DNA of 49,555 nucleotides from assembly GCA_017881185.1 (NCBI GenBank), contig JADGRE010000014.1, positions 1 through 49,555 on the forward strand, given 5' to 3'. Source of the stretch: Pseudomonadota bacterium (GTDB lineage Bacteria > Myxococcota_A > Polyangia > Polyangiales > JAFGIB01). This document shows, piece by piece, positions 23,121 to 26,086 of the stretch; position 1 is the stretch's first letter; each line of letters starts with the position of its first letter. Position numbers and translations under genes: made by a program. The notes below the pieces were generated by a model, which was not told the DNA's origin, did not search any database, and saw only the letters and a program-made list of their open reading frames with translations.

Positions 23121-24533
23121 ATGGCGTTTGCAGCAGATGACGGCAAGCCGGGCACGTTTCTTGCGCTGGCAGACGTGAAGCGTGTTTTGTTTCTGGCTGT
23201 ACCAGCGATGCTGGCGCTGCTGACGCAAACTGCGATCAACCTCGTCGATACCTATTTCATGGGCTTTCTGCGCGAACCCGAGCGCAGCGATGGCCAGGCG
23301 ATGTTGTCGTTCGCGCTGGTGCTGCTCTGGGCGATCGGGGGCTTTTTGTCGGCGATCTCCGTGGGCACGCAGGCCATGGTGGGCCGGCGCGAAGGTCAGA
23401 GTCATCCGCACGAGAGTGGCGGCGTGCTGGCCAACGCCGTGGTCTTGGCCACGCTCAGCAGCCTGGTGGTCTCGGCCCTCGCGTTCATGTTGGTGCCCAT
23501 GGTCTTCCGCTGGGTGTCCCAAGATCCTGACTACGTGCGCGTCGGCACAGCCTACACGCAGTGGCGTTTCGTGGGTTGCGTGTCGATGGTGGTCACCGCC
23601 GCGTACAAATCGTTCTACGACGGCACAGGCCGCACCTACGTGCACTTCTGGGCCGCGCTGTTCATGAACGTGGTGAACGTGTTGCTCTGCTACGCGCTGA
23701 TCTTCGGCGAGCTCGGCGCGCCGCGCATGGGCGTGGCCGGCGCGGGGCTCGCTGCTGCGATCTCGTCGTGGGTAGGCCTGGGCGCGATGATCCTGTTCTC
23801 GATGCGCGCGGTCGATCGCGTGAAGTACCGCCCGTATCGCGCCGGCGTGCTCTCGCTCTCGGTGATGAAGAACCTGGCGCGCCTGTCGGTGCCCTCGGGC
23901 GTGGCCACCACCGTGGTGATGACCGGCTTCATCCTGTTCATCCGCATCGTGCACGTGTTCGACAACCAGCTCGCGACGCAGGGCGGTACCGAGTCCATCT
24001 ACGGCGCGGCCACCACGATCATCATCAACGTGCTCAGTCTCACCTTCTTCTCCTGCATGGCCTTCGGTGTGGCGACTGCCACGTTGGTCTCGCAGAGCCT
24101 CGGTGCGGGCGACCCGGAGAGCGCCGAGCGCTACGCCTGGAGCAGCGTGAAGATTGCCGTGATGGCGTTCGGCGTGCTGGGTCTGCACGAAGTGATCTTC
24201 CCGCAGATGTGGATCGCCATCTTCAACAAGTCGCCCGACGTGATCGCAGTGGGCACGTCATCGATGCGCTTGATGGGCGCGGTCGGTCCCGTCATCGCCG
24301 CAGGCATGATCCTCACACAGGCGCTGTTCGGCGCGGGCAACCCACGCTTCGTGATGCTGGTGGAGCTGGTGCTGCACTTCGGCGTGCTGCTGCCGGTTGC
24401 GTATTGCGGCGGCATCATCTTGCACGGCGGATTGCTCGGCGTTTGGTCGGCAGCAGCGCTCTACGCGTTCTTGCTCACGGGCATCATGGCGTGGAAGTTT
24501 CGCTCGGGCAGCTGGAAGACCATTCAGATCTGA
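23121..24533 (+). CDS. MATE family efflux transporter
   Basis: A 470-residue integral membrane protein with about 12 spans in two homologous halves, the MATE fold; each half begins with a VPAMLALLTQT or LSVPSGVATTVVMTG type helix. Members export cationic compounds or drugs in exchange for H+ or Na+. Conserved features seen: the NLVDTYFMGFL segment in helix 1 and GVAGAGLAAAISSW near mid-protein. The substrate cannot be deduced. ATG 23121 lacks a ribosome site and probably gives a leaderless or near-leaderless mRNA. It is monocistronic and divergent from the pal-like gene. Confidence 0.9.
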   Translation: MAFAADDGKPGTFLALADVKRVLFLAVPAMLALLTQTAINLVDTYFMGFLREPERSDGQAMLSFALVLLWAIGGFLSAISVGTQAMVGRREGQSHPHESGGVLANAVVLATLSSLVVSALAFMLVPMVFRWVSQDPDYVRVGTAYTQWRFVGCVSMVVTAAYKSFYDGTGRTYVHFWAALFMNVVNVLLCYALIFGELGAPRMGVAGAGLAAAISSWVGLGAMILFSMRAVDRVKYRPYRAGVLSLSVMKNLARLSVPSGVATTVVMTGFILFIRIVHVFDNQLATQGGTESIYGAATTIIINVLSLTFFSCMAFGVATATLVSQSLGAGDPESAERYAWSSVKIAVMAFGVLGLHEVIFPQMWIAIFNKSPDVIAVGTSSMRLMGAVGPVIAAGMILTQALFGAGNPRFVMLVELVLHFGVLLPVAYCGGIILHGGLLGVWSAAALYAFLLTGIMAWKFRSGSWKTIQI

Positions 24534-24580
24534 TGCGTGGTGCTGGGGCTTGCGCGGGGCGGCGTTCGGTGGGGCTGAAC

Positions 24581-24645
24581 GGTCGGGGAGGAGGGCTCCT
24601 GCGCGCGGTCCGGCGGGTCCGTGCTCGGAGCCCTCCTCCCCGACC
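24581..24645 (+). repeat. 65-bp palindromic element, copy 1
   Basis: A perfect 19-bp stem (24581-24599 with 24627-24645) encloses a 27-nt loop. The loop is identical, in reverse complement, to that of copy 2. Confidence 0.9.
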
Positions 24646-24880
24646 TTGCGTCACAGCGAGCTGCGCGGGTGCGAGCACCGCGCGACGAAGACGAGAGGCG
24701 TCTTCCACTGCGCTTTGCTCACTGGGTTTGGGAGACGGCTGGGCGTCGCGCCCAAGCTGAGTAGCGGGGCGCGGGCCGCGAAGACAACCACCAAAGATGA
24801 CTCGCCGCGGCATCTGTTGCCTTGTGTGACCACGCTTCGCGAGACGCAGGGCGTTGTGCAGTCGCTGCATCGCGGCGCAA

Positions 24881-24945
24881 GGTCGGCGGGGGTGACTCCG
24901 AGCACGGACCCGCCGGACCGCGCGCAGGAGTCACTCCCGCCGACC
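24881..24945 (-). repeat. 65-bp palindromic element, copy 2, inverted
   Basis: A 19-bp stem (24881-24899 with 24927-24945, one G-T pair) encloses the same 27-nt loop in opposite orientation. Six stem positions differ from copy 1 and five are matched by compensating changes on the other arm. Confidence 0.9.
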
Positions 24946-24967
24946 GTTCAGTTGATCACAAGAAACG

Positions 24968-26086
24968 CTAGTCACGCCCAGTGCGTGTCACATTGGCTTG
25001 CTTGCTCATCGCTGCGATGGCGCGGGCGAGGAGGATGAAGCCTAGGGTCATTGTCAGTAGGCGGCCGGGGGCTCGGGGGCCGTAGCCTGAGGCGAAGATG
25101 AGGAGGGTTGCGGTTGCTGCCTGCACGCGCGCCGCACCACCGGCGACCAGCGCGCTCGCTGCGCCGGCGAGTGCCAGGCACATCGGTAGCGCGTAGAGCG
25201 CGGGCGAGCGCTCGAGCAAGAGGCCGACACGTTGTGCGTGATAGAGCAAGATGGCGAAGTCGTTGTGTAGCGCTTGGTGCGCCACACGCAGCCCGTAGCC
25301 GGCTGCAACGAGGGTGAGCAGGCCGGCGGCGCGCGCGAGCAGCTGCCGCGCCGTGGTGCCGCGCGCTGCCAGCAGCGGAAAGCTCGCGAAGAGCAAGCCC
25401 AGGTACGAGATTTCGCCCAGGCCTTGCAGCGTCTCGTAGGCGCGATGCTTCCACGGATCGAGCTGCACGTCGCTGGTGAGCTCGAGCACGATGGTCGACA
25501 GGCACAAGAGTGGTAGCGCGGTGGCGAAGCCGGCGATCACGCGCAGCAAGAGCGAGTTGGCGAGATCGAGCGCGCGCATGCCCACCATCACGCACAAGAC
25601 GCTGGCGGCGCCGACCGCGAAGTAGACGTGCTCGCGCGTGGTGTGCGTGCGATCGAGCACGGTGGCGACGACCACCTCGCGCAGCAAGATGCTCAAGAAC
25701 ACGACGAACATCACGCGCCTGCGCGCGTTGAGCAGCACGTCACCGCGCCACACGGACCACAGGCTCGCCACCAGAGCGATCAAGCCCGCGAACACTGCGA
25801 GGTTCTCTGCGAACTGGCCGGCTTGCTCGATACGACCGAGCAGCTCGCGCGCCACGCGCGTGCCGAGGCCCGGCACGACCAGCTGGTTGATGGCCATCGA
25901 TGCCAGGGCGGCGAGCGCGGTCATGAACGACAGCGCAGGTAGCTCCTCCAGCGCCGCCCACTGGGACGGGGCGGCTTGCGCGCGCGCATCGGCTTGCCGC
26001 TGCTGTGCTTGCCGCGCGGGCGCTGTGTCGCCGGCGTCGGGTGCGCGTGGCGCGCGCGGCTGGCGCGGCTGTCCACTGTCGTTCAC
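24968..26086 (-). CDS. Hypothetical polytopic membrane protein
   Basis: About 372 residues from GTG 26086 (uncertain; the frame is open to 26305, where it would overlap bioB, and ATG 25924 is a shorter option). A Pro/Ala/Gln-rich hydrophilic N-terminus (about 50 residues) precedes roughly nine hydrophobic segments, for example [38 protein letters not shown] and [19 protein letters not shown] recognise no family. It is divergent from bioB and ends next to the palindromic region. Confidence 0.65.

Follow-up and report, generated by a model that had tools for sequence, protein, structure and literature searches.

Two inverted palindromes between convergent genes

In the window, which is the whole stretch of 49,555 nucleotides that was analysed, a gene for a MatE-family transporter and a gene without a Pfam match converge, and each is followed by one copy of a palindromic element that we call type I (Table 1). 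The stop codon of the MatE gene lies about 40 nt before copy 1, and the stop codon of the convergent gene precedes copy 2 when the latter is read on the - strand. A sequence-only reading had described two 65-bp palindromes with a 19-bp stem and a 27-nt loop, and both are present. All 19 stem positions pair in copy 1 (24581-24599 with 24627-24645), and 18 of 19 pair in copy 2 (24881-24899 with 24927-24945). The loops are exact reverse complements for which the chance expectation in the window is 0, so that the copies are inverted, as had been described. The same reading counted six differences between the arms, five of them compensated and the sixth a G.T pair. The count holds, but the G.T pair exists on the + strand of the window only; on the (-) strand of copy 2 itself it is A.C. 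The repeat unit is wider than the palindrome, and it extends from CTGAAC to TTGCG (I1: 76 nt, 86% complementary).

Table 1. Positions of the type I palindromes and adjoining genes in the window, and of related hairpins in genome G054.
Feature	Position	Strand	Remark
MatE-family transporter gene	23121..24533 (longest ORF form starts 23040)	+	PF01554, E 1.1e-31
Type I copy 1, 5' flank CTGAAC	24575..24580	+	same flank in most genome copies
Type I copy 1, 5' arm of 19-bp stem	24581..24599	+	
Type I copy 1, conserved 27-nt loop/core TGCGCGCGGTCCGGCGGGTCCGTGCTC	24600..24626	+	21 genome copies, at most 3 mismatches
Type I copy 1, 3' stem arm	24627..24645	+	100% complementary
Type I copy 1, conserved 3' flank TTGCG	24646..24650	+	
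Type I copy 2, conserved 3' flank TTGCG (read on -)	24876..24880	-	
Type I copy 2 (19-bp stem, loop 24900-24926)	24881..24945	-	98.8 bits on - strand; inverted relative to copy 1
Type I copy 2, conserved 5' flank CTGAAC (read on -)	24946..24951	-	
Convergent gene, no Pfam match	24968..26086 (longest ORF form ends 26305)	-	
Hairpins with type I outer frame CTGAACGG...CCTGCG, structured loops	L245/L248/L285 (G054 contig C22)		

Elsewhere in the window, a canonical-looking hairpin with a T-run (AAAGCCCCGCATGgcaaCATGCGGGGCTTTttct) occurs twice after a 5S rRNA gene, at 1324-1353 and 1408-1437.

Type I copies, arms and core

A genome-wide search with the loop had been proposed, and it found more than the two copies of the window: the draft genome (G000, 5.99 Mb) contains 21, and a reversed-pattern control gave 0. 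A covariance model was also built, which recovers all 21 copies and adds a half copy on contig C21, 80 nt upstream of the full one. Most copies are preceded by CTGAAC and followed by (T)TGCG or a close variant, and three inverted pairs are found (contigs C324, C313 and C214). When the 182 further genomes of the order were searched, the loop pattern had one match, in G055, a congener, and within the order the type I core was found only in these two genomes. A search of the species collection with the core returned 16 matches, two of them in records of isolate Chersky_785 (JADGRG), labelled as Sandaracinaceae, a family of Polyangiales, Myxococcota. The remaining matches were judged to be chance, since the long arms and flanks of the family are absent from them. 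No exact match to the core was found among viral contigs, and no Rfam family matched at or near its gathering score. A general outer stem around type I was considered and rejected, as only two or three copies had one that exceeded mismatched-flank controls; nor did folding reveal a fixed second hairpin downstream.

The left arms average 59% identity, a difference of about 40% between copies, and the loop is near-identical throughout. In an alignment of 16 copies, 96.8% of the cells are paired, and two-sided change occurs at 13 of 19 arm pairs, compared with 7.6 in shuffles. The covariation score is 0.362 against 0.118 in shuffles, none of which matches it, and the signal is lost when the partner is slid by one to three columns. 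Uncompensated arm changes, which the sequence-only reading had named as evidence against itself, do occur in some copies (L006-, C212 and the half copy at C21:8277), yet the arms covary overall. The claim that pairing is kept while the sequence drifts is thus borne out; selection as its sole cause is not proven, since template-switch correction would also yield perfect Watson-Crick arms. Within the loop there is a fold of its own: an invariant 6-bp helix that includes a G.T pair, then a T.T mismatch, and a tetraloop with CC/GG as the closing pairs.

A larger hairpin family, type II

Near one type I copy lies an intergenic hairpin in which the two halves of the loop stand in opposite order. Swapped loop halves are found at 7 places in the genome of the window, and the control gave 0. 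These seven places are hairpins of about 148 nt with ends AAACAG...CTGTTT and covarying arms, which we call type II. A type II model (R2) gave tens of matches each in G000, G054 and G055, shorter and longer variants included, although some places were matched on both strands; there are at least 20 places in each of the three genomes. Across the order, the type II covariance model detects the family in 29 of 177 genomes and 15 of 79 genera (E 1e-6 or better). Several genomes of the order have at least 17 candidates, and all copy numbers per genome are lower bounds, as several copies lie at contig ends. A search for type II with a loose 17-base pattern gave too many chance matches to be of use, and phage and plasmid sequences gave no match to the type II consensus.

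In 47 aligned type II copies, 91.2% of the cells are paired and two-sided change is seen at 31 of 57 pairs, a value equalled in 0 of 500 shuffles. Internal mismatches T.T, C.T and C.C are retained. Most type II cores read GGTGCGTGC/GCGCGCTCC, and the type-I-like ones read GGTCCGTGC/GCGCGGTCC, which is a compensated change inside the core. Because the halves recur swapped, what is kept seems to be the core as a fold and not the loop as a linear sequence. The sequence-only reading had held that the loop is conserved and is what is recognised, and the analysis supports this, recognition being probable. Type I appears to be derived from this larger hairpin family, which is found in many myxobacteria. 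The shared sequence and fold suggest that it is a derivative of the GGTCC subgroup of type II with a permuted core.

The terminal inverted repeats AAACAG...CTGTTT are present in nearly all copies of the genus. Many copies read C-TA-AACAG...CTGTT-TA-G, with TA at both ends, which is compatible with insertion at TA and a possible target-site duplication; no clean pre-insertion site was read.

Several type II copies have small hairpins of 30-45 nt nested in their arms (L180, L181, L185, L187, L205, L206 and L207), and half copies persist. In a tRNA cluster (L133:4797-5786), two type II copies surround a tadA-like gene, one adjoining the 3' end of a tRNA and the other a tRNA 5' end. Several small genomes of one genus (L303-L307, f4/g20) have only one or two type II copies; one of these directly follows tRNA-Lys, and that same sequence also precedes another.

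Placement, turnover and origin of the hairpins

Gene ends for the type I copies were taken from a codon-usage gene caller. Of 20 placeable copies, 14 lie in sense orientation within 60 nt after a gene end, compared with 13% for random intergenic positions (p 1e-8). The exceptions are the plus-strand copy of C313, the C102 copy and the decayed C212 copy, and the copies on C21, C293 and C267 are more than 60 nt from a gene end. The placement of type II is tighter. Three congeneric species supplied nearly all of the 60 copies examined, and 45 of these have a 5' end that is flush with a stop codon or a tRNA 3' end (-18 to +1 nt), against 1.8% expected by chance (p 1.6e-65). The junctions read TAA|ACAG, TGA|AACAG, TGA|AAACAG and once TAG|ACAG, so that all three stop codons occur. 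Flush placement of the 3' side is less frequent (10 of 59 copies), and three copies adjoin tRNA 5' ends. In other families of the order, 13 or 14 of 20 type II copies are flush, including after an encoded CCA end. The youngest copies are flush in 8 of 14 cases versus 25 of 31 (p 0.15), a difference that is suggestive only.

Comparison between species reveals turnover of these sites. In the G055 orthologue of the window site, the two genes lie some tens of nt apart with no hairpin between them. The site of the C214 pair is likewise empty in G055, and in G054 it is occupied by a different inverted hairpin pair that has the same CTGAACGG...CCTGCG frame and loops of 68-77 nt. Sister type II copies in G055 are up to 97% identical. 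Two apparently orthologous type II sites suggest maintenance in place, with 7 compensated and 5 single changes at one and 5 compensated and about 7 single changes at the other. The hairpins are probably mobile, as judged from comparisons between species and not from observed movement.

The mismatches that remain in the arms bear on which strand is under constraint. On the core (sense) strand of type II, A.C occurs 33 times and G.T 9 times, counted in columns that are no more than 20% non-Watson-Crick (p 3e-4 on an assumption of independence that does not hold for these related sequences). The excess has the same direction in G000, G054 and G055, and type I leans likewise; counted by column it is 15 to 9, which is not decisive. 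Since a fold of the sense RNA should tolerate G.U, the excess of A.C favours DNA or the opposite strand, and speaks against upkeep by a sense-RNA fold. The invariant G.T pair of the core points the opposite way.

Taken with their observed copy number, covariation, position, permuted core and site turnover, the palindromes are probably copies of a dispersed, non-coding and non-autonomous mobile hairpin that belongs to a broader Polyangiales set with type II as its main branch (probability about 0.55). They are best read as a new family of REP/MITE-like mobile palindromes that either target the 3' ends of genes or are retained there. Copies would multiply and be lost over evolutionary time; they are found at gene 3' ends with the 5' side of the element towards the gene, type II being flush with the stop codon or the mature tRNA end. 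The arm sequence would be free as long as the arms pair. The apical core (a GCGCGG/CCGTGC-type helix, the conserved T.T mismatch and a TGC/TC internal loop) hardly varies and persists even with its halves swapped, and from this we infer that a dedicated trans-acting enzyme may recognise it as a folded single strand, probably DNA. More tentatively, the whole might be an undescribed, order-wide Polyangiales element that dedicated machinery, reading a folded single strand through a conserved and topologically permutable core, places precisely at gene ends, behind stop codons and mature tRNA 3' ends. A plain transposon would not usually be placed at gene ends in a single orientation, which could be a sign of function, and a second role at transcript ends may coexist with mobility.

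That function could also be the whole explanation. The hairpins may work in RNA as a terminator, a 3' processing site or a 3' protector, with a protein binding the core and copies spreading because they are useful. The sense orientation, the 3'-end placement and the flush junctions with stop codons and tRNA 3' ends would all follow, as would inverted pairs between convergent genes with one copy per gene, as in the window. The A-rich and T-rich ends of type II (AAACAG...CTGTTT) resemble a bidirectional terminator, and the core keeps its G.T pair on the sense strand. We consider this account, the main rival to mobility, possible but doubtful. There are only tens of copies per genome, the sites turn over between congeners, three type II copies adjoin tRNA 5' ends, and on the sense strand G.T is rarer than A.C. 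Bidirectional intrinsic terminators share with type II the hairpin at convergent gene ends and the A-tract and T-tract. However, type I has no T-run and is followed by TGCG, type II has only 3-4 T, and the hairpins are very long and conserved in core sequence. Before the C21 element there is a canonical terminator-like hairpin with a T-run. The covariation could instead have no selective cause. Correction of quasi-palindromes is known in bacteria, and template switching of this kind would keep the arms complementary, with the loop conserved through youth or because it alone matters. The arms are indeed nearly pure Watson-Crick, with G.T very rare. Yet they differ by about 40% between copies that have a near-identical loop, the internal mismatches of type II stay uncorrected and decayed copies persist, all of which makes this explanation unlikely.

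Among known systems, an integron attC site is a folding site after a stop codon in which structure and not sequence is kept. A recombination site of this kind, with a folding bottom strand, an adjoining stop codon and covarying stems, would account for the sense placement and the stop codon at the site edge, and the A.C excess suggests tolerance of wobble on the bottom strand, the use of which PMC2727003 describes for attC. It is nevertheless very unlikely here. The copies are dispersed rather than in cassette arrays and some adjoin tRNA genes, and the conserved tip is the part that varies in attC. The attC boxes are also missing, as the type II ends CTAAAC/GTTTAG depart from RYYYAAC/GTTRRRY at the fourth position and type I has no such ends. 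Ordinary REP/BIME elements moved by RAYT are largely refuted. A REP is a palindrome of 20-40 bp with an unpaired GTAG or CGTC tag at one end; REPs lie mainly downstream of coding regions, often as pairs in opposite orientation and with several types per genome, and the CGTC families have no known transposase (PMC3733652). The hairpins described here share the downstream location and, in part, the opposite-orientation pairs. They differ in length (65 nt with a CTGAAC flank in type I, about 148 nt in type II), they have no GTAG/CGTC tag, and their structured tip is fixed while the arms are free but covary. The search for a TnpA-REP (Y1 HUH) gene that had been proposed found none in the genome of the window. 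Y1_Tnp (PF01797) is also absent from G054, with positive controls, and G055 has two weak matches; type II hairpins are present in all three genomes alike. The likeness to REP/BIME or a MITE that the sequence-only reading had noted thus holds for dispersal, inverted pairs and location downstream of genes, but not for the REP tag, the size or RAYT.

MITEs such as ERIC/RU-1, RUP and Correia are about 100-200 bp long and intergenic, with short terminal inverted repeats and a long stem-loop transcript (PMC2229807). Type II shares the terminal inverted repeats, the size and the intergenic stem-loop, and is set apart by its covarying arms, its conserved core and its oriented placement at gene 3' ends. 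The analysis identified neither a transposase nor a verified terminal duplication for the hairpins, nor an autonomous or IS partner, and none of the half elements inspected in 20 regions formed the second end of an element around an open reading frame. Literature searches found papers on REPs and MITEs, but none on such hairpins in myxobacteria.

Most bacterial palindromic repeats are defined by stems of fixed sequence. In these hairpins it is the tip that does not change, and the stem need only pair; the core tolerates an exchange of its two halves, and in many genera the larger family lies flush with stop codons and tRNA ends. The hairpins thus form a natural covariation data set. They raise the question of how a mobile sequence finds, or is retained at, the exact end of a gene, which bears on how REP, ERIC and attC hairpins come to lie after genes.

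Other hairpins were noticed in passing. Another family in the genome of the window (L066:3304-3357, L066:3678-3725 and L110:12238-12285) has the loop gg[ac]cgcgctacctg and GCGTTTGGCA arms, with outer arms that are also variable. At L059:775-823 and L109:86-136 the stem is conserved (CGCGGCCCCGCGAC) and the loop is variable, which is the reverse of the type I pattern.
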